Shown: piece by piece, positions 10,851 through 64,000 of the stretch
Layout: the number at the start of each line of letters is the position of its first letter
How positions within the stretch are numbered: the first letter of the stretch is position 1
NCBI GenBank assembly: GCA_028554795.2
Contig: CM068828.1
Span: forward strand, 13,764,314 to 13,828,313
From: Sinohyriopsis cumingii
Lineage: Eukaryota > Mollusca > Bivalvia > Unionida > Unionidae
DNA length: 64,000 nt
Direction of reading: 5' to 3'
Program-made: the position numbers and the translations under genes
The notes under the pieces: model-generated
The model's database searches: none
Told to the model about the DNA's origin: nothing
Seen by the model: only the letters and a program-made list of their open reading frames with translations

Positions 10851-11247
10851 ACACTCAAAGAACGGCTTCGACATTTCATGTCCCTTCAAAAGACTTCTGC
10901 ATTTTAGTAACCTTCTGGGTACAAAGATATGGCACATTAACATAATTTGATTTCCTTTATATTTTTCTTGAATTATAAGTTTGTAAATTACATCTTAGTA
11001 GTTAATAGGGGCGAAATAGACCTCAAAGAGTTATGTAAGGAAAAACAACGGGAATGGAACAGGGCCTGTATAGATCCAAACCGAAAATGGATCAGGGTGG
11101 TTGGGTCTGTCTAGGGACAATGGTGGTAGAACGACAAACACAACAGAGACATAGACATATACACATTCACAAGCAAATAAGTATACAATATAAAGACAAA
11201 ATAAATTTTGGGCAGAGAGAATGGACATGTTTTCGAGGCAATGGAGT

Positions 11248-11263
11248 GGCCCTGAAAAGGGCC
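11248..11263 (-). terminator. Histone-type mRNA 3' stem-loop (B1, minus-strand gene)
   Basis: The minus strand reads GGCCCTTTTCAGGGCC, preceded by CCCCAAA and followed by ACTCCA. This is a perfect 6-bp stem with a TTTC loop, the canonical histone stem-loop. CTCGAAAAC lies about 10 bases beyond, as a weak U7-type element. It starts 30 bases after the stop codon of the minus-strand small gene. Confidence 0.85.
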
Positions 11264-11293
11264 TTTGGGGTTTGTTTTGTTAACATCTTCGAG

Positions 11294-12313: not shown

Positions 12314-12341
12314 GTTTGTTAAGAAAAAAACAACACCAAAC

Positions 12342-12357
12342 GGTCCTTTTCAAGGCC
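12342..12357 (+). terminator. Decayed histone-type 3' stem-loop (B1, plus-strand gene)
   Basis: GGTCCTTTTCAAGGCC follows ACCAAAC and precedes ACTCG; one mismatch has entered the stem relative to B2. The purine-rich TTTCTCGAAAAGAG block, 8-20 bases downstream, is fully retained. Position and order equal the intact hairpin at 61060-61075. Confidence 0.7.
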
Positions 12358-12464
12358 ACTCGCATTTCTCGAAAAGAGTGACTACTCAAAGTTTGCCAAA
12401 TCAAGTAAAACTGAAATCCCTTTTTCCCAATCATGTATGTTTGTGAGTGCATGAGTGTAGGACC

Positions 12465-18715: not shown

Positions 18716-19430
18716 CTCTTCAATGACAAACCGATACAGGCACGGAATTTCTGAACCAAGCTTTCCAAAAAATGTTGAGGAAAAGAGACATTCATTTCTT
18801 CACCACTGATAATCACGAAACCAAGCCATCATTGTGGGACCTTTTCAACACCAACGCACCCTAACAGAACGCTTGCGGAACGATTTTAAGCATTAACACA
18901 CTATCAAATACGTCGACGTATTACCGCGCCTGGTCAAAGTGTACAACCTATCTTACCATTGAAGCATCGGACGTGCCCCCGAAGAAGTGACTCCTGACAA
19001 CGAAGTGACCGTCTTTGAGCCCCTGTTTGGTGCGTCCCTGACTACGGCTGTCCCCAAGAAAGGTGAAGTGTTGACGACAAAGATTGGGTTTGCATTGGTA
19101 AAAGCAAACCCACTTTCCACAAAGATTACTTACCCAGCTGGACCACCGAATCGTTTCGTGCCACTGGACGTGTGCCTGGCAGTCATCATGTCGTATATGA
19201 ATTGGAAGACACGAACAGGGAAGTGTTTAAAGGAACTTTCTATTTGCCCGAAAAAAAAAGAGGTTTACGACATCGAAAGCATTCTTGATCGAAGAATCTT
19301 TGTTGGAATTTTGGACCAAGTGGGCCAACGAAGTGTTAAAGAAATAAAAGTGCGTTGGAAAGGATATCCTCCCAGTTTTGATTCTCGGATCGACACTTTG
19401 CAAGTAATCGACTATAAAAAGAAGTGACCA
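18716..19430 (+). pseudogene. Maverick integrase (retroviral-type rve) with chromodomain, N-terminus lost
   Basis: The segment from 18.72 kb gives T-x-T-E-F-L-N-Q-A-F and RDIHFFTTDNHETKPS, the core-domain stretch that precedes the catalytic Glu. The Glu codon itself is lost in a frame change near 18.83 kb. An intact 147-codon frame at 18987-19427 starts TPDNEVTVFEPLFG and ends with a chromodomain (YDIESILDRR, EIKVRWKGYPPSFDS, DTLQVIDYK). The N-terminal zinc-binding domain and the first catalytic Asp are missing. The enzyme inserts element DNA into the genome. Integrase plus chromodomain is a hallmark of Mavericks. Confidence 0.8.
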
Positions 19431-22259: not shown

Positions 22260-22660
22260 TTTAGGAGATATGCTGAAATCTGCGTTTCATTTGGTGCCCC
22301 CCGTGCTGAAACCATTGGTAACACGAGGATTGCACGCATTGAAAGATACTGCATGGACGCAAGGAAAATAATTTCAGCAAAATGTCGTCATCGACAAACA
22401 AAACCCCAAAGAAGCCGTATTGAGAGCATGCAAAAATGTCTTGCCTCAAATAGGAAAAGACACTTTAGGCCGAAGAGAAACTCCTATAAATGCGCTGAAC
22501 TATGTCGAGCAATGCATTATTTCTTCTCTAACACCACAGCAAAGATAAAGCAGAAAGAGACGACAAAGGCGCCTTTAAAGAGGACTTCACACGCATGTGG
22601 CCAGAAAGTCTACGAGAAGAAGAACCGTCAGAGAATTATACGCCTTTGATTATCAAAAGG
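22260..22660 (+). pseudogene. Core/minor structural protein upstream of the major capsid gene
   Basis: The frame reads DMLKSAFHLVPPVLKPLV, TRGLHALKDTAW, then after a TAA an A-V-L-R-A-C-K-N helix and GKDTLGRRETP. It ends in shifting basic frames (RKRRQRR) immediately before the major capsid ATG at 22669. An amphipathic helix plus a basic tail suggests a capsid-internal protein; the identity is inferred from position and composition. Confidence 0.4.
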
Positions 22661-22668
22661 AAAAACTG

Positions 22669-24000
22669 ATGCACCGAGAGTCTTGCGAATGTACCAAGTT
22701 CGAACTGGATCTGTTTTCCATGCTACCCACTATGGTGACAATGCAAGAATCCCAGTGAGTAGAATTTCCTCCCGTCTACTCTTTGACATCATCAGCTCCC
22801 ATCGAGTTTGAAATCAAAGGTCAGCCCGAAGATTACATATATCTGAATAGCAGTTACTTGTACCTGAAAGTCAAAGTTCTCAAAACGGACGACAGGAGAG
22901 GATACCAGAGCTGATCCTATCAACACTTTCATGCATTCCTTGTTCAGCGAAGTGGCTTTGTACTTGAATAACAATCTGGTCAGCAGCAGCATGGATACTT
23001 ACCCTTACCGAGCGTACCTCGAAAGTCTCTTGACGTACGAGAACGATGCAAGAATACTCATCGGGATGATTGCGTAGTATGGAAACCAGATACAGCGGGC
23101 GAGGACAAGTTCAAAGACACAGTCATGACAGAAGCTGATAATCTTCACAATGTGGGCTTTAACGACCGTCGAAGGAAAATCATACAAGGACATAGTTTAG
23201 AACTGATGGATCGTTTGCATTTGGACATGTGGTTACAAGAAAAGTATTTGCAGAATGAAGTGGATGTCCGCCTGAGACTGAATCGAAGCAGTATTGTTTT
23301 CCATTTGATGACTCATGCTAACGAGTACAAAGCCATTATCCAAGAAGCCAGACTGTACGTGAGACAGGCGCAACTGTTACCTAAAATGGGAAACGACGTC
23401 AGCGACACTTGGAGCAGAACGACTGCCCAGTATCGGATACGACGAGTAGAAGTGAAAACCTTCATCATTGCCGCTGCACACATTTCCAAGGTCGAAGATC
23501 ATCTGTTCCAGGGACAGTTACTCAAACGTTTTAAACATTAGTATCATCAGCAATGAAGCCCTACACGGAGCTGTCGCTACCAATCTTTTTGAGTTTAAGC
23601 ATTACAGATTATCCAAGATCAGAGTCAGTTGCATGACATTGTATATCCGACCATTCGAAGAGAAGAATTACTGGAGATCGTAATTGTCCTTGTATGGAGC
23701 CACGGAAGAGTTAGGGTCCAACAGCAACCACTGCATTTCGTACGACGATTATGCGATGCTTTGTGGGCTTTTGATTTCACTCTCGACCAATTCAGCGACG
23801 AGGGACATTTCCACCTTTAAAATCTTGTCAACTTCGTGTGGAACTTCAGTTTGCAGAACCTCTACCAAACACAGTGAACGGCATTTTATATGCCGAATTC
23901 GACAATACTATAGACTTCAACAGCCTGAAAGAAGTAATTCTAGACTACTTGAAGCTATGGAAGACTCTTATGCTTCTTTGAATCGTAGAGTCTCTTTGGA
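22669..24000 (+). pseudogene. Major capsid protein, Maverick double-jelly-roll type (F54H12.2-like family)
   Basis: ATG at 22669; the N-terminal segment FELDLFSMLPT is followed by APIEFEIKGQPEDYIYLNSS, then NTFMHSLFSEVALYLNN and TYPYRAYLE. A long intact stretch lies at 23125-23541 (LDMWLQ, VDVRLRLNRS, ARLYVRQAQL, YRIRRVEVKTF, LFQGQ). The C-terminal YAEFDNTIDF lies near 23.9 kb. Order and motifs match the family often named uncharacterised protein F54H12.2-like, which is the major capsid of Maverick-type elements. A TGA at 22757 and several frame changes break it. It would form the hexameric capsomers. Confidence 0.8.
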
Positions 24001-24229
24001 TATGGAGACAGGATTTCTTGGAAGCAGAACCATCCACAAAGACAAAGACGAAGAAGACATGGTGATGTCCAGATGGCCAGAAGAAGAAGAAACATTAGCT
24101 TCCTGTTTTGCTAAACATCTGGCTAAAAAGTACATCGTTGACCCATTAACATTGCTATGGCCGTCAAAACGTTCCTCCCAGTCGAATTCAATCAATCAAT
24201 TAAAGGATTTAAGTCGCCTACGCAACTAG
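23957..24229 (+). other. Short acidic frame after the capsid gene
   Basis: MEDSYASLNRRVSLDMETGF followed by a Lys/Asp/Glu-rich stretch and a hydrophobic-basic end, about 90 codons, overlapping the capsid 3' end. It could be the last element gene or a frame-shifted tail. No family recognised. Confidence 0.3.
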
Positions 24230-24348
24230 TGCTTTCGCGACTGGTTAAGTCTTGAAGGTCGAGATTTTCAATTGATCGGGACTGTAGGAATAGAGCCACT
24301 ACAGTCCCGCTGTTATGTGCGAATGTCGCACTTTTTAATTCATGAACA

Positions 24349-27659: not shown

Positions 27660-28577
27660 TTGAGTATTTGTGTTTTTGTATGAGTTGTAATGTAAAGAAA
27701 TGCGTCTGACTGTTGTGATATTGATTATTATAATAGGATTAGGAGTATGTACTGATGTGACGCAATTTATTAATGTATGTATGAGAAGTAAATGATTCCG
27801 TGCTTTTATTACGACGTTGTTTTGCCATACAAGAACTATGAGTATTTCGATGTGAACGAATGCGTGACCGAAGAAATTTAATAGCCGTTATCTGATGATA
27901 GTCTGGGTGTAGTGTGAGATGAGAGGGCTGAGGAAGATATTGTAACATCCTTGTGTTTTCACAGGAAGCTTTTTAGGGGATAGAACTTCCGGTTCAGTTA
28001 CGGCCCGAGTCTCAGATGGGAGACGGAAGTGAGACTAACAGAGCAGTCGGAGTCGACAAGTGTAGTCGGTGGAGAGATGCGAGGAGAAGGTGGAAAAGGA
28101 GTCGACCAGGAGAAAGTGGAGAAGGAGAAGGAGTATAGAGAAGTCGAGGAGGAGAAGGAATTTAGAGAAAGTCGGGAGGAAGAGGAGAAGGAATTGGAAA
28201 AATAGGAGAGAAGAATGCACAGATGAGTAGAATATAAGGACAGGTGGAAAGCTGTCTCACACTACTAATCAGATGATACAATAGGTTATATCAGGGTCGA
28301 GCGGAAGGAGAATACTTGTGAAATTTGAAACACTTAACTATTGAATTGTTATTAAATTGTTAGCCGTTGAACTTCACTTTTTGTATGTTCAATCATTTAA
28401 CCTTTAGCATTGCTGACTGGGGCTCGGAACTTTCCATTTATCTTTCACTAATTTAACTTCCAACCTAAATCGAGCCTGGGTGGGACTTCTATAATAATTT
28501 AAATAGAATATTCGGAGCACCCACCACATTCATAACACACATACCACATTGGCGGCATAACAACCCGTCACGCCACA
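27660..28577 (+). repeat. 5' LTR of the Gypsy element
   Basis: Aligns with the 3' LTR from GTTTTTGTATGAG onward. It contains a purine-rich GAGAAGG tract and an AATTTAAATAGAATATTCGGAGCACCC-like region near its end. Its first ~90 bases relative to the 3' LTR are not recognisable, so the left border is uncertain. Confidence 0.75.
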
Positions 28578-31044: not shown

Positions 31045-32036
31045 GCTTGAATTGTGAATTTGGAAAATGGTTGAAGTGTGTAACATTAGTCAATATGGAT
31101 GAATGGATGTATCAAAGCATGGATTTTCCAGCATTCGTGTTTTTGTATGAGGTGTAATGCAAAGAAATGCTTCTGATTATTGTGATATTGTTTATTATAA
31201 TAGGATTAGGAATATGTACTGATGTGACGCAATTTATTGATGTATGTATGAGAAGTAAATGATTCCGTGCTTTTATTACGACGTTGTTTTACCTTACAAG
31301 AACATATAAGTATTTCAATGTGAATGAATGCATGACCGAAGAAATTTAATAGCCGTTGTCTGATGATAGGCTGGGTGTAGTGTGAGATTAGAGGGCTAAT
31401 GGAGATATGGTAATATCCTTGTGTTTTTACAAGAAGCTTTTTGGGGGACAGAACTTCTGGTTCAGTTACGTCTCGAGTCTCTGAGAGGGGAGAGGGAAGT
31501 GAGACTAGCAGAGCAGTCGGAGTCGACAAGTGTAGTCGGTGGAGAGATTCAAGGAAGAGGAGTCAATGAGGTAAAAGTGGAGAAGGTGGAGGGGTATAGC
31601 GAAGTCGAGGAGAAGGAATTTTGAGAAAGTCGAGAGGAAGAGGAAAAGGATTTGGAAGAATAGGAGAGAAGAATACACAGATGAGCAGAATACAAGGACA
31701 GGAGGAAAGCTTTCTCAAAATACTAATCAAATGATGCAATAGGCTATCACAGAGTCGACGGAAGGAGAGTACCTGGGAAATTTGAGGCACTTGACTATTG
31801 ATTTGTTATTAAGCTGTTGTTCATTGAATTTCACGTTTTGTAAATTCAATCATTTAACCTTTAGCATTGCTGTCTGGGGCCTCAGAGCTTTACATCTATC
31901 TTTCACTAATGTAACTTCCAACCAAACTCGATCCTGGATGTGACTTCGATAATAATTTAAATAGAATATTCGGAGCACCCCACCCCAACTATAACACACC
32001 TATTACAGTGGCGGCATAACAACCCGTCACGTCACA
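31045..32036 (+). repeat. 3' LTR of the Gypsy element
   Basis: Starts near TGAATTTGGAAAATGGTTG, a sequence also found at the corresponding end of the reverse LTR at 40.0 kb, and ends ...CCGTCACGTCACA. Compared with the 5' LTR it differs by many substitutions, so the insertion is not recent. Confidence 0.75.
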
Positions 32037-36856: not shown

Positions 36857-37755
36857 TGTTATGTTTACTTAATTGAATTGTTTGTTTGTCAGTTTTAAAT
36901 ATTTTTTATTTCATTACATGTTATTGTGATATAACATTGTTTACTGGACTTCACCTTTTCCAAAACTGAGTTCATTTCTGCTTGACCTCATTGACTGTCT
37001 TAATACAATTTTTATTTCATTTATGTAAACTACTAAAAATAGCTTCATTATAGTCTATGTGTATGAGCAAATCAACAAAATTAATATTCAGGTAAACAAG
37101 AAGTGGTAAATATGATGGTTTGGGTCAGGGTTTTGGAACTTCTCACGTTAATTTTATAGGTTATTGTGTTGTAAGTAAACAAAGCTCATTAGACCATTAT
37201 AAAATGTTTGTTTTTAATAGGTAATGGTTGTTAATGCTAATGTGACCTGAGGTTAAGCAGAGAACTGTATTATCTTGTGACTGTGAAGAATTTACCAGTT
37301 GTGCTTAAGATCCGGCACTTTAACTCGTTTTATGTTGTGACCAATTTTGGCTGAATTTTATTTTCTTCAAATTATTTAATTCAATTGATTATTTTCCCTG
37401 GAAATACAAAATTTCTCTGATAAAATGCTTGGATAAAGAAACTCATTGAAATTTATGCTGAATTCAAACCTGGAATAATAATTATGTGATCCAAAACATC
37501 AGCACTTCGCTTACAACAACACACATGTCATCGCCTTCAATATCAAATCTCTTCGGAACTTGAACTGAGTTTTATTCAGGACTTTTTAATAACTAGGACT
37601 TTAATTCTTGGATTATTTTTGGGCAATACCGTAAGTTCTTGTTTTCTCATTTTTTTACGTTCTATTCTTGGGAAATAAATTATTTGTTAAATTTTATAAA
37701 GCTTGTTGTCTTCACGCTTTTCTGTTACTTATTTTAACAGCATAGACTCGTAACA
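36857..37755 (+). repeat. LTR-like repeat, copy 1 (probable solo LTR)
   Basis: Begins TGTTATG and ends CGTAACA; about 900 bases; shares with 50457-51356 the blocks GAGTTCATTTCTGCTTGACC, GGAAATACAAAA, GGAAATAAATTA, AAGCTTGTTGT and GACTCGTAACA. It is flanked by AGAG on both sides (36853-36856 and 37756-37759), fitting a 4-bp target duplication. An AATAAA lies near the 3' end. Orientation is given by the poly(A) signal. Confidence 0.6.
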
Positions 37756-50456: not shown

Positions 50457-51356
50457 TGTATTTTTATATATATTTAATTTAATTGTTAGTTTTGTTTATA
50501 ACATTAGATGCTATTGTAATGTAACATTGTATGCAGGACTTGACCTTGTCCAAAATTGAGTTCATTTCTGCTTGACCTGATTGACTTTTTTAAAACTTCA
50601 TTTTATGTAAACAACTGATACATAGCTAAATTATTCTCCATGACTATGGGATTAATGTCAGGATCTTTATTAATAGAAGAAGTAAATATGTTTATTTGGG
50701 TCATGATTTTGGACTGTCCTAAGTGAATTTTTCAGGTTATGGTTTTGATTTTGTAAACATCAGGAGCCTTCTAGTAGATTATTTTCCATTAGGTAATTTT
50801 TCTTTTTAGAAAATGATAATTGTGCCCTGAGGTCAATTAGAGAACTGTTCAATTTTCTAATTGTGAGGATTTGCTAGCACTTGTAAGTTGAATATTAAAT
50901 ATTGTGACCAGTAGCTTTGGGCTGGAATCTTTTTTGTTCAAATTATTGAATCTGAGTGATTATTTTCTCTGGAAATACAAAAGTGCTCTGATAATATTCT
51001 TGGATAGAGATATTCGCTAAAATTAATACTGAATTCAAACCTGGAACTATATTACTGTCATTCAACTAAAGACTGTTGACACATCAACACTTTAATAGCT
51101 ACCACACACACGTCATCGATTTCAGTTGTTGGATTTCGTCGTGACTTTTACTGAATTTTATTCAGGACTCTAAATTATTAGGACTTCTGTCTGAAATTCT
51201 TGGATTATTTTAGAATTTAATTTTCAATACCGTAAAATCTTTTGTCTCATTTTCACTTTATATTTTAGGGAAATAAATTATATTTGTTAAATTTTACAAA
51301 GCTTGTTGTTTTTCAATCTTTTATGTTACTTGTTTTAAGAGAATAGACTCGTAACA
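50457..51356 (+). repeat. LTR-like repeat, copy 2
   Basis: Colinear with 36857-37755 and ending at the same GACTCGTAACA; similarity stops exactly after that point in both copies. The 5' edge (TGTATTTTTATA) is less certain and no matching target duplication was found. Confidence 0.55.
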
Positions 51357-59225: not shown

Positions 59226-59640
59226 CAGTTGAAGAAATAATAGCAAAACTAATAAAATTAATAGTATTATAGCATAATTACAACGACTATAATAGACGAC
59301 TTGTATGAAATATATAATAAATACAATAGTTTGTTTGATATGTTTATATCTATTAATAAGCATAATCATTCTACATATATTCAAATCATGATTTTAACGC
59401 TTAAAAAACCTATATGATAATGATGATAATATACGCGTTTCCGTAACAAAATTTGTACCACCACTACTAACGGGTTCACTCTACAAACCTTGAGTTTCCA
59501 AATATCTCTTCCTAACAGTCGTTTGATTAAGGGCAAAACAATTATTTCCAGGACGTTTGGAAGTAGGAAGATTTTTGAATGATTACTCCCCCATTGTATA
59601 CCTCTGTATCATTAGATGTAAGTAGTGAAAGGGGGCACGT

Positions 59641-59935
59641 TAGCCTCAATGGGAATTTGCATTAAAAACACCCCTGGGTCACTTTAGTCTCAATGGGAAA
59701 TTTAACATTACAAAAACACCTGGGTCACTTTAGCCTCAAGGGGAATTTAACATGGGAAAAAATTTTGGGTCTGTTGAGCCTCAAAGTGAATTTAACATGG
59801 GAAAAAAGTTTGGGTCTGTTGAGCCTCAAGGGGAATTGAACATGGAAAATAATCTTGGGTCTGTTGAGCCTCAAGGGGAATTGAACATAGGGAATAAATC
59901 GTGGGACTGTCTAGGGACAAAGGGAATTGAACAGG
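59641..59935 (+). repeat. 45-bp tandem repeats at the left end of B2
   Basis: Six full units start at 59641, 59685, 59731, 59776, 59821 and 59866, plus a diverged partial unit at 59912. The core is GAGCCTCAAGGGGAATTGAA followed by GGGTCTGTT. The last four units share a 45-bp period, so one frame repeats a 15-residue pattern (GSVEPQGELN). Related sequence marks the left end of B1 near 11.05-11.12 kb. Confidence 0.9.
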
Positions 59936-60003
59936 GGATTTTTTTAAAAATAAAAAAATGGGGTAGGCAATTGAAAGTCTATCTCTTTTCGAGAGATGTG
60001 GGT

Positions 60004-60019
60004 GGCCCTGAAAAGGGCC
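60004..60019 (-). terminator. Histone-type mRNA 3' stem-loop (B2, minus-strand gene)
   Basis: The minus strand reads CCAAA-GGCCCTTTTCAGGGCC-ACCCA, identical to the metazoan replication-dependent histone consensus in stem, loop and both flanks. CTCTCGAAAAGAG follows after about 8 bases, the place of the U7-binding downstream element. It begins 19 bases after the stop of the 60039-60269 gene. Confidence 0.9.
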
Positions 60020-60038
60020 TTTGGGTTTATATATGCCC

Positions 60039-60269
60039 TTAACAGAAAGGGCATCTGTGACTTCTTCTTGTCCTTAGGCTTCGTCTTACTGTAGGACCAT
60101 AAATCAGGACTCTTTTGAGATATCCTTGCCTCTCCACGTAAATCCAACGTATCCATAGGTTGCTGGCGGTCCTATGGACAACTGTCCATTCGGATCGGAC
60201 ATACATCGGTATGTCCGTCCTGAACATCATTGTTGACACAAGAGTGGAAGATTCAACGTCAGTCCACAT
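60039..60269 (-). CDS. Small basic protein with histone-type 3' end, function unknown
   Basis: An intact 76-codon minus-strand frame starts at ATG 60269-60267 and stops at 60041-60039. Motifs shared with the B1 relic are VESSTL, PMYV, IYVE, RVLIY and VRRSLR. The C-terminal third is highly basic with an RCPFC end. A TATA box (TATAAATA, 60321-60314) lies about 45 bases upstream of the ATG and the histone-type hairpin 19 bases downstream of the stop. It is the divergent partner of the 60489 gene. It is not a histone. The basic tail suggests nucleic-acid contact; this is inference. I recognise no family. Confidence 0.7.
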   Translation of the reverse strand: MWTDVESSTLVSTMMFRTDIPMYVRSEWTVVHRTASNLWIRWIYVERQGYLKRVLIYGPTVRRSLRTRRSHRCPFC

Positions 60270-60313
60270 GCTGAGGCGACGAGAACAGGTAAATCAATGC
60301 AGTGAACTGCGCT

Positions 60314-60440
60314 TATTTATAGGTAGAGGAAGGATTGAAACGGATTGAGTTCATTGACCAATCCAAACACGCGTTACAAAATTCAGTCAGCTCGCATCCA
60401 ATCCGAAGAGAACAGTCTGTGACGTCATGTGGTCTATATA
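60314..60440. promoter_or_regulatory. Divergent promoter of the hairpin gene pair
   Basis: Minus-strand TATAAATA at 60321-60314 faces left. GACCAATCC (CCAAT) lies at about 60356-60364 with an inverted GGATTG at 60342-60347. TGACGTCA (CRE) is at 60420-60427, and a plus-strand CTATATAG TATA box is at 60434-60441, about 50 bases before the ATG at 60489. The layout mirrors paired histone-gene promoters. The plus-strand part and the CCAATCC site are conserved in B1 near 11.57 kb. Confidence 0.65.
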
Positions 60441-60488
60441 GATTCGCTAGCGCCTGTGTGCAGTCAATCTATGAGACAGTTATTCAAC

Positions 60489-61034
60489 ATGACGGAAACT
60501 CAGAAAACGATCAATTGGGGTGCACCAGCAGTGGAGACCACCCAAGGGAACCCGGACTTACTTTCAGAAGAGGTAAATTGGGATTTTGTGGATTTTCTTA
60601 CCTCGCAAGAATTTGTTCCGGAACCTTCGTCACGTTCTTCATTACCGCACGTGGAGAATTTTAGACAGAGACAGAAAGAAGAATTGGAGAAATTTATACA
60701 ACGACAAAAGGAAGTGGAACAAGCTTTTCTTTAACAGCAACAACAACAAGAAGAGGTAAGAAAAAAACAAGAAGAAGAAGCAGCAAAGAAACAAGAGGGT
60801 GAAAATCAAACGGTCACGGTACTGTTGGACATTTTAGCGGAGTTAAGAAGTCTGAAACAAATGTATCAGACTTCTTTATCACGACCGAAGAGAATACGAC
60901 CTTCCCGAGCCAAACACGCCAACCCTGTGACTAAGCCTACCGTACCACCCTTAGTGATTTCAACCAAATCACCATCATCAGAAGTAGGCCTCGGCCGTGG
61001 CAAAGGCTTAAGGCAGTTAAAGCTGATTGCTTAA
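60489..61034 (+). pseudogene. Q/E/K-rich coiled-coil protein with histone-type 3' end (one nonsense codon)
   Basis: ATG at 60489; MTETQKTINWGAP start, a conserved FVDFLTSQEFVP segment at about residues 32-43, then a long Gln/Glu/Lys coiled coil (60.66-60.81 kb). A DILAELRSLKQMYQTS helix and a basic RPKRIRPSRAK linker follow, then GLGRGKGLRQLKLIA at the TAA (61032-61034). An in-frame TAA at 60732-60734 sits inside a CAA-rich run, so it is most simply a CAA-to-TAA change. The rest of the frame is intact. The histone-type hairpin starts 26 bases after the stop. Not a histone; function unknown. Confidence 0.7.
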
Positions 61035-61059
61035 ACTCACCCCTACAACAAAAACCAAA

Positions 61060-61075
61060 GGCCCTTTTCAGGGCC
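61060..61075 (+). terminator. Histone-type mRNA 3' stem-loop (B2, plus-strand gene)
   Basis: AACCAAA-GGCCCTTTTCAGGGCC-ACCCA: a 6-bp perfect stem, a TTTC loop and consensus flanks on both sides. TCTCTCGAAAAGAGATAG follows 8 bases beyond, as the purine-rich downstream element. No AATAAA lies between the stop and the hairpin. It is a near-perfect inverted copy of 59978-60025. Confidence 0.92.
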
Positions 61076-61235
61076 ACCCACTTCTCTCGAAAAGAGATAG
61101 ACATTCATTTGCCAATAACTCAAAAAAAACCCCCAACAAAAAACCCATTTTACCACTATAGTACGTGTATATGAGTGCGTGAGTGTAGCTTCTTATTTAA
61201 AATCAAAACTCAAAGACACTTACCTTTATATACCT

Positions 61236-61241
61236 AATTTA
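61236..61241 (-). terminator. Poly(A) signal for the zinc-knuckle gene
   Basis: AATAAA on the minus strand about 85 bases after the TAA at 61327-61325. This gene therefore seems to use ordinary polyadenylation, unlike the neighbouring hairpin pair. Confidence 0.45.
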
Positions 61242-61324
61242 TTCTTTTATAAATAGTTACAATCCAATTCACAATTCACAACAGAGCACTTTAAAAAGTA
61301 CATTCACTTCTTCTGTCTCACTGT

Positions 61325-61764
61325 TTAGTCTCTCTGTTTTTTAAATTTCTTCACCGTCACAGTCTTTTCCTCCTCTTGCTCCTCACTTTCTTCCCTTCTT
61401 CTTTTCTTCTCCTGTTTCTTTTTCTTCACCTGTCTGCTATCTTCCTCCTCTTCTTCTTCCTCTGAAGAATCCCTCTCTTCTTCTGACTCCTCTTGTTTCT
61501 TTTTTGGGCAATCTGGAGACCAATGTCTTTTTTCTTGACAATAATAACAGGTATCTTGTCTTTTGTCTCTTTTAACCTCTGTTTTTCTTTTTGACGGTCA
61601 GGACACTCTGAAGACCAATGCCCTTTCTTCTGACAGATATAGCAATTATCTTCACTTTTATCTCGAAAAGAAGGAGAGTAGTCCGAAGGATGGTCTGAAG
61701 AAAATTTTCTAATGACCCCTTGCAAAGCTCTGATGAAACGTTCGATTTGGCTAGTCTCTTCCAT
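61325..61764 (-). pseudogene. Double CCHC zinc-knuckle protein, frame-broken
   Basis: ATG at 61764 (MEETSQIERFIRALQG). The first knuckle, CYICQKKGHWSSECP, is in this frame (61.66-61.61 kb). The second, CYYCQEKRHWSPDCP (61.55-61.50 kb), is in the next frame, which then runs through a Glu-rich acidic and a Lys-rich basic tail to TAA at 61327-61325. Both knuckles have the C-x2-C-x4-H-x4-C pattern of nucleocapsid and CNBP-type RNA/ssDNA-binding proteins. In B1 the same interval is a multiple of three, so B2 probably lost frame by an indel in the A-rich linker. It is divergent to PolB and shares its promoter gap. Confidence 0.7.
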
Positions 61765-61818
61765 CGTTGTGCTCGGTTAGAGAGTGAAATGAATAGTGAA
61801 AGGACAAGACACACACCC

Positions 61819-61851
61819 TTTTATATACGCTGGTCTGCCATGACTATAAAT
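61819..61851. promoter_or_regulatory. Divergent TATA boxes between zinc-knuckle gene and PolB
   Basis: The minus strand has TATATAAAA (61827-61819), about 55 bases before the ATG at 61764. The plus strand has TATAAAT (61845-61851), 48 bases before the ATG at 61899. The two start regions are only some 20 bases apart. Confidence 0.6.
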
Positions 61852-61898
61852 TAGTCCATGCTGTTTAAATTTTAGTCATTTGACGTTTTTCACTCAAG

Positions 61899-64000
61899 AT
61901 GAAACGATCCAATTCATTTGAGAAGAAAGAAGAAAGTAAGAGGCAGAAACGTGATCTATCGCCTCGTACCAGAGCTGAAGTCTTGGCACAAATTTATGCC
62001 AGTGATTTTGAAGAGGACATTAGTGAACCAGAATCCGAACCCTCTAAACAAAGTTCACCACCCTTAGTTAACCCTGAAAAGTACTATTCCATTCGAGAGA
62101 CAGAAAAGCGCTCCTCTAGAAAATTTAGAACCACGGCTTACAAATACACGGTGAAGTTTAAAGATTTCAAGGTCGAAGTACCGTTAGAGAAAGCAGAAGG
62201 GTTGATCACCGGGGTGTGGGATTCTTTACTCACCACACTCAAGCGACAATGTCAACCCAAAGAAGACGATCGCTTGAGACTTTCCATGCAACACGAAATC
62301 CCCTGTTTGGATCGAGTTTAGCAGCCCTGCAGAATTGACCGCTTCCAAAGTCATGGACAAGATTCAACACGTGCAACAATCCAATGACCAGTTTGACATC
62401 ACCGATGGAAAAGCCACATTGGACATGACCCACGTCTCTCCTCCTCAAGGGACTGGCCGCAGAAAGATCTTATTGGTGAACGACCTTCGCAGCACCAAAA
62501 AGAGTCTCGTCCGAATTAACGACCCTCAAGACCAGATGTGTTTAGCCAGGGCTAATGCGGTGGGACCAACCTATGCTAACAAGAATGACACGGCAGAATG
62601 GAAAAGAGCCTGGAAAACTATTTGACAATCGCACCGAGCCAAACAACGAAGTGAAGCAGAACTCCTGTTGCAACAAACCGGCCTGCCCATAGAAACACCC
62701 TGTGGCATTCCTGAAATGCAAACATTGCAAGATGTCCTAGCTCCACGCTACACCTTGAAAGTGCACCCTCAAGAAATGCGTGGGCCTCTGTTGTTTCGAG
62801 GGAAAGACTTTAAGGATGGAAAATACATTCATGTCTATTATCACGATGACCATTTCGATACCATTACCAGTATCACCGGATTCCTGGGATATGCTTATTA
62901 CTGTGAGAAATGTGACCATGGCTATAACAATCGAGAACAACACAAACGTTGTGGATCGAAATGCTCAGGATGTTTGACCTCTCCACCCTGTCTGAACGAA
63001 GGGCAAGAACCAGTGCATTGTTCTGCTTGTCTGAGCACGTTTGTTAGCCCTGCCTGTTACCAACAACATCTGAAGACGCAAGGTTCACAGCAGAAATGCA
63101 CTTGTCAACTCCTGAGATTGTGCCCTACGTGTTGTCAAGGCATACGTACCAACAGTGACAAAGCACACGTATGTTCAGGAAAGAAAAAATGTCACATTTG
63201 TCACCACATCGTGGACTTGGAACACGAATGCTACGTGCAAAAATACCAACCCCAACCAGAGAAAGAGGATGGTCACAAGAAGAAAGGCAATTTCATCTTT
63301 TTCGATTTCGAATGCATGCAAGAGACTGGCATTCACATTCCTAATTTCTGCGTGGCTCATCGAGCGCGCGAGAAGTGCATTCAAGAACCTATCTTCAGTC
63401 ATTGCCCTCACTGCAGCAAGATTCCTGGAGGACGTGAAAAAATCTTTCGGGGACCGAACACGCTAACCGATTTTGCCCAATGGGTCTTAGACCCCATCGA
63501 CAAGACGTGGAGCCAAGAGGACATCGAACGTTACGGAGATTGTCATCGTCATGCCACGGTGATGGCTCACAATTTCTCCGTATACGATGGACAGTTTCTT
63601 TTGAGATACTACACGGAACAAGGCACCGAGCGTCCTAAAGTCACTTTCATGCAAGTGGGACAAGTACAGTTTAAAGATTCGATGAGTTACTTGGCCATGC
63701 CTTTGAGCCGAATGCCTAAAACATTTGGAATGACAGAAATGGCTAAAGGGTACTTTCCACACTTTTTCAATACGGAAGCCATTCAACACGCCGTTCTACC
63801 CCATTTGCCTGAGGCTCACTATTACGACCCCGACAACATGCGTACCGAACAACGAGAAGCTTTCTACGCTTGGTACCAGGCTCACGCCTCCGACCCTTTC
63901 GACTTTCAGGAAGAAATGTTAAAGTATTGTCGTTCCGACGTGGACATTTTACGGCGTTGCTGTGGAAAATTTCGAGAACTGTTCATGGAACACGGAGGGG
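61899..64000 (+). pseudogene. Protein-primed family B DNA polymerase (B2 copy, 5' part)
   Basis: ATG at 61899 (MKRSNSFEKKEES). Frame one carries a basic/acidic N-terminus and a conserved DDRLRLSM segment and ends at TAG 62319-62321. The continuing frame (+1) is open from 62278 and includes the CLARA box near 62.54 kb. It is stopped by TGA at 62623-62625, where B1 has CGA, then stays open to the window edge. A cysteine-rich zinc-ribbon array lies at 62.90-63.21 kb. Exonuclease motifs are intact: I FFDFEC (about 63298-63315), II HNFSVYDGQ (about 63568-63594), III YCRSDVDIL (63924-63950). Seven residues present in B1 between motifs II and III (around YGARII) are absent. The palm lies outside the window. 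Confidence 0.85.

Follow-up and report, generated by a model that had tools for sequence, protein, structure and literature searches.

Animal histone genes are described in PMC1924863 as the only genes known to produce mRNAs without poly(A) tails. Their pre-mRNAs are cleaved 4-5 bases past the stem, as set out in PMC7026596, and, according to PMC5011920, histone mRNA processing confines expression to S phase. Among virus-like elements, 8300 genomes of polinton-like viruses (PLV) and virophages, analysed with Rfam at the gathering cut-off, are stated in PMC12220804 to contain six matches to the histone 3'UTR stem-loop, none of them in cryptophyte elements. The main text of a vertebrate Maverick survey (PMC8097293) does not use the words histone, stem-loop or hairpin, and Maverick particles had not been observed as of that source. 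Here, a Maverick-type element of a freshwater mussel, Sinohyriopsis cumingii, is described in which two small divergent genes are each followed by a cassette of histone type, the proteins scanned below matching no histone family.

The window, that is, the whole stretch of 64,000 nucleotides that was analysed, contains a pair of collinear copies of the same element, copy A from ~11.0 kb and copy B from ~59.6 kb (left limits estimated), which are 76% identical over 1889 alignment columns in the polymerase region. Copy A is decayed, being heavily interrupted by stops, and copy B is cut by the window end. Judged from its sequence, the copy B polymerase is of Maverick type, with protein priming predicted. 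It displays 164 homologues at E <= 0.001; among the 120 of these that were listed, all carry PF03175, and the matches listed include Ostrea edulis, Mercenaria mercenaria, Mytilus edulis and two spiders. The family B polymerase agrees with the identification of the element as a Maverick/Polinton in an earlier sequence-only reading of this DNA, and is the one feature on which that status is based. No Pfam family of capsid, protease or ATPase was identified in ten fragments from positions 15.9-24.2 kb, in decayed copy A, and the Pfam scan for an integrase yielded nothing beyond a chromodomain below threshold at 18963-19424 (E 0.046). Open fragments at 22600-24230 recall a Maverick capsid-type protein by eye, the scanned pieces matching no Pfam family. 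Neither left end had a convincing inverted partner within the window; the right end of copy B lies outside it. In the viral contig collection, one polymerase pattern gave 0 matches and another gave 43 pattern matches, of which 0 were confirmed. Tandem repeats of ~45 bases at 59653-59923, just outside the B minus cassette, are subterminal repeats of the element, and a trace of the motif is present at 11045-11123 in copy A. Elsewhere, the window contains direct repeats ~3.46 kb apart (27663-28522 and 31130-31980, 82-93% identical in pieces), possibly retroelement long terminal repeats; direct repeat pieces ~13.6 kb apart (36893-37494 and 50483-51065, 79-82% identical); and an open frame of 438 residues (393-1709) that by eye resembles a NACHT-type ATPase and has parts recurring ~2 kb further on at 2527-2851 (87%). 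Coordinates of the features of the element are shown in Table 1.

Table 1. Position, strand and supporting detail of features in copies A and B of the element.
Feature	Position	Strand	Detail
Cassette, copy A minus side	11219..11273	-	stem-loop 11248-11263, CTCGAAAA 11230-11237; RF00032 35.0 bits at 11223-11268
Worn cassette, copy A plus side	12332..12386	+	stem-loop 12342-12357, one G-U and one broken pair; CTCGAAAA 12368-12375
Histone-type 3' cassette, minus-strand gene, copy B	59979..60024	-	stem-loop 60004-60019, ACCCA 59999-60003, CTCGAAAAGAG 59983-59993; RF00032 40.3 bits, E 2.2e-8
Small basic gene of left-end pair, start not settled	60039..60269	-	stop TAA 19 bases before stem; A/B codon mismatches; relatives P0126, P0127
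Divergent promoter region	60270..60488	.	two CCAAT and TATA-like motifs (motif matches, without control)
Second gene of left-end pair	60489..61034	+	in-frame stop in copy B; relatives P0128-P0130
Histone-type 3' cassette, plus-strand gene, copy B	61055..61100	+	stem-loop 61060-61075, ACCCA 61076-61080, CTCGAAAAGAG 61086-61096; RF00032 39.2 bits, E 5.5e-8
AATAAA 3' of zinc-knuckle gene, ordinary poly(A) signal	61238..61243	-	motif match
Neighbouring zinc-knuckle gene, two overlapping frames (61426-61764, 61328-61597)	61328..61764	-	zf-CCHC E 3.3e-6 for 61426-61764
Family B DNA polymerase, copy B, runs off window	62626..63999	+	DNA_pol_B_2 PF03175, 44.1 bits vs cut-off 25.8, part 62701-64000

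The two small genes at the left end diverge across ~220 bases, and the promoter region between them shows 70% identity with copy A across 166 aligned positions. In both genes A/B differences are commonest at third codon positions, with mismatches at positions 1/2/3 of.25/.23/.49 in the minus-strand gene and.21/.15/.29 in the plus-strand gene (columns reassigned by one base). Relatives, 64-72% identical, were found in other contigs, comprising P0126 and P0127 for the minus-strand gene (2/2 candidates) and P0128-P0130 for the plus-strand gene (3 of 11 candidates). Neither copy has an intact plus-strand gene, that of B being interrupted by an in-frame stop; the frames of the gene's relatives are open at this position, and thus intact copies exist. 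An intron at the in-frame stop, across which the relatives are open, was considered less likely than an inactivating change. That the proteins are not histones, as the sequence-only reading had it, is supported by Pfam, which revealed no family and no histone for the minus-gene protein of copy B (E up to 0.1) and no histone family for P0126 and P0128-P0130 (E up to 1), the plus-gene piece of copy B being left out. Searches of Pfam, PHROGs and PDB sequences assigned no function to the left-end proteins and returned sub-threshold matches only, the best in PDB being a coiled-coil-like chain (E 0.013). The minus-gene protein model is poor (mean pLDDT 41.9), and that of P0129, a plus-gene relative, displays a single long helix with a disordered tail (mean pLDDT 73.9, pTM 0.29). 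The C-terminal tail of the plus-gene protein, GLGRGKG-L/I-RQLK (60980-61031), is conserved in its relatives and recalls histone tails, in particular the start of H2A and H4. Two six-frame matches to LxCxE were observed in 59800-64000, neither within a left-end protein, and patterns for the two proteins gave 402 and 18 matches in the viral contig collection, with 0 confirmed in either search.

Both genes of copy B are followed by a hairpin that is exactly GGCCCTTTTCAGGGCC, flanked by CCAAA on the 5' side and ACCCA on the 3' side, and by CTCGAAAAGAG, which begins 10 bases past the stem in both cassettes. This arrangement of hairpin, flanks and downstream element is present as the sequence-only reading described it; of the distances of 19 and 26 bases that it gave from stop to hairpin, the first holds (minus gene) and the second measures 25 bases (plus gene). 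Both hairpins exceed the gathering score of 34 for RF00032, the Rfam histone 3' stem-loop. With up to three mismatches, GGCYCTTTTCAGRGCC has six matches in the window, three of them exact, vs 0.81 expected, and 0 of 100 shuffles reach six, an excess not due to chance. The sequence AAAGGCYCTTTTCAGRGCCAC had 0 exact matches in the viral contig collection and in the genome contig collection, and two looser forms of the hairpin pattern had 0 matches in the viral contig collection.

The hairpins are not limited to one copy, since matching cassettes are present in diverged copy A and one is indicated in a third contig. The 16-base stem-loop, with six pairs, consensus flanks and a score above the RF00032 gathering value, was identified in three of the four cassettes; the copy A plus cassette gave no RF00032 match up to E 5, and a permissive scan of the window to the same E revealed no site beyond the three. 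In all four, CTCGAAAA lies at a fixed distance, 10 bases 3' of the stem. When the four cassettes are aligned without gaps, anchored on CCTTTTCA, 8 of the 9 columns of the downstream block are invariant, as are 18 of the 22 columns of the stem-loop block, 8 of which are the anchor itself, leaving 10 of 14 free columns; elsewhere, invariance is found in 4 of the 10 columns that separate the blocks and, outside, in 11 of 311. On the minus side, A/B identity is 76% in the cassette, 43% in the spacer and 44% beyond, with corresponding values of 78%, 55% and 67% on the plus side; because the copies are still 67% alike past the plus cassette, the conservation contrast is weak on this side and clear on the minus side. 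No covariation was found in the stem among the cassettes compared. A model built from the four cassettes gave 22 matches in the window up to E 10, the four themselves scoring 69.9-80.4 bits, by construction, and the fifth match 13.5 bits (E 0.62). The relative P0127, from another contig, runs beyond the usual end of the minus-gene protein into cassette sequence, and the best matches of its tail in the whole window are the four cassettes (E 8e-5, 7.5e-4, 0.001 and 0.001). This indicates, as read via the protein letters only, that a cassette follows the minus-strand gene in that contig too; the P0127 codons imply an altered first stem base, and that copy may thus be decayed.

RF00032 scores above its gathering value three times, after genes and at matching places, and this was counted in favour of histone-pathway processing. 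On these sequence grounds, the transcripts of the left-end divergent pair of small non-histone genes are probably finished by the host replication-dependent histone pre-mRNA pathway. In this scheme, SLBP would occupy the stem-loop of the transcripts and U7 snRNP would recognize CTCGAAAA(GAG), the element downstream of it; U7 snRNP would then cut after ACCCA, leaving an mRNA without a poly(A) tail. Because such processing is tied to S phase in histone genes (PMC5011920), expression of the pair would be limited to that phase, when host DNA and element replicate, and an element replicating with or beside host DNA would profit from this. Both the non-polyadenylated mRNAs and the host S-phase timing of the pair are plausible.

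On each gene's own strand in copy B, neither AATAAA nor ATTAAA occurs in 59500-60040(-) or 61034-62400(+), and the absence of AATAAA over some hundred bases may be taken as weak evidence for histone-type ends. The neighbouring zinc-knuckle gene is followed by AATAAA, and the element thus seems to hold two classes of gene end. Histone-type ends were seen only at the left-end pair, and this neighbour is not in that class. Two CCHC zinc-knuckle motifs in overlapping frames (61328-61764) adjoin the Maverick-type polymerase, the Pfam scan having covered 61426-61764. The downstream element, previously proposed to be that of U7, has kept its position and its letters, but it pairs only weakly to modestly with human or fly U7: three cassettes show modest pairing, and one cassette of copy A has lost it. 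Among 3000 random 32-mers of the window, the B-plus, A-plus, B-minus and A-minus cassettes rank 122, 167, 578 and 2744 with human U7 and 225, 108, 77 and 2154 with fly U7, respectively. As a control, mouse H2a in a variant carrying a 4-base insert came 44th with human U7 and 770th with fly U7, showing that U7 pairing is species-bound and that human and fly U7 are imperfect stand-ins for that of the host. The mouse H2a substrate shown in PMC7026596 has the same order of ACCCA followed by AAAGAG.

The modest pairing with the known human and fly U7 would also fit a different use of the hairpin, in which it binds SLBP and aids translation or stability while the mRNAs are mainly polyadenylated further downstream and S-phase coupling is loose. 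Poly(A) signals are described 3' of histone genes in other animals, and they are used in Drosophila SLBP mutants (PMC1924863). The conservation of the downstream block at a fixed distance and the lack of AATAAA or ATTAAA in the scanned stretches speak against such transcripts, which we regard as unlikely.

The copy B cassettes sit in a 63-base inverted repeat (59966-60028 and 61051-61113, 94% complementary), and the two cassettes of A and the two of B are therefore not independent witnesses. We read this repeat as the product of a recent gene conversion in B, because A-minus and P0127 have letters in common that B-minus lacks. With its near-palindromic stem, an inverted repeat placed around a gene pair could alternatively act as DNA, serving recombination, replication or packaging. 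However, copy A has kept the repeat less well, its conserved columns being those of the stem-loop and downstream blocks; each of the two cassettes directly follows a stop and is oriented 5' to 3' outward from the gene pair; and RF00032 fits the asymmetric flanks and loop. A role as DNA is thus quite improbable.

So exact a match makes descent from host histone genes likely, and polinton-like viruses with captured host rRNA are reported in PMC12220804, which raises the question of whether the cassettes merely remain from a captured host histone gene end and do nothing at present. This is very improbable, as each of the two genes retains one in copy A and in copy B and another is indicated in the third contig, their conservation falls mostly in functional columns, and the pieces scanned with Pfam show no histone match. 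Scarcely credible is another RNA hairpin, a terminator or exonuclease block, that merely resembles the histone element: any stable GC hairpin can act so, and the B cassettes have fold z-scores of -1.88 and -2.57, but agreement with the histone model extends to the loop, the two flanks and the spaced downstream block, and A minus still scores 35 bits although the copy A z-scores are near zero (-0.21 and -0.13, the A-plus stem being absent from the best fold).

Returning to processing by the histone pathway, the observations suggest an element that exploits host machinery coupled to DNA replication. We lean, with somewhat better than even confidence, towards an animal Maverick family that keeps its left-end pair under the host histone-mRNA pathway, so that stem-loop-ended non-histone mRNAs would be made with host DNA replication, as an S-phase class beside polyadenylated genes. 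If true, SLBP and U7 would have a natural client other than histone genes in a virus-like element, the case would illustrate how integrated elements can time their genes to host replication, and Mavericks would gain a testable expression programme.

The left-end genes share with animal replication-dependent histone genes the stem-loop, its flanks, its place after the stop and a spaced downstream purine element. As a divergent pair with TATA and CCAAT motifs, they also recall H2A-H2B pairs. They differ from these genes in lying in a mobile element and in encoding proteins that, where scanned, match no histone family, the P0129 model, a long helix with a disordered tail, being likewise unlike histones. 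With Mavericks/Polintons and adintoviruses the element has in common a family B DNA polymerase of that type, while its histone-type gene ends set it apart, as far as the main text of the vertebrate survey (PMC8097293) goes. In a search of the literature on polintons and Mavericks with a histone stem-loop or SLBP, most subscription papers lying outside its scope, no description of such gene ends was found, in keeping with the statement of the sequence-only reading that no described Maverick/Polinton is known to have the trait. That statement is qualified by the six PLV and virophage matches, which belong to the same Rfam family in virus-like elements and are given in section 16 of PMC12220804 as a count, without host, gene, conservation or role. 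They lower the claim to a first sighting, and it is the conserved use of the cassette on a gene pair that is still new within the literature searched.
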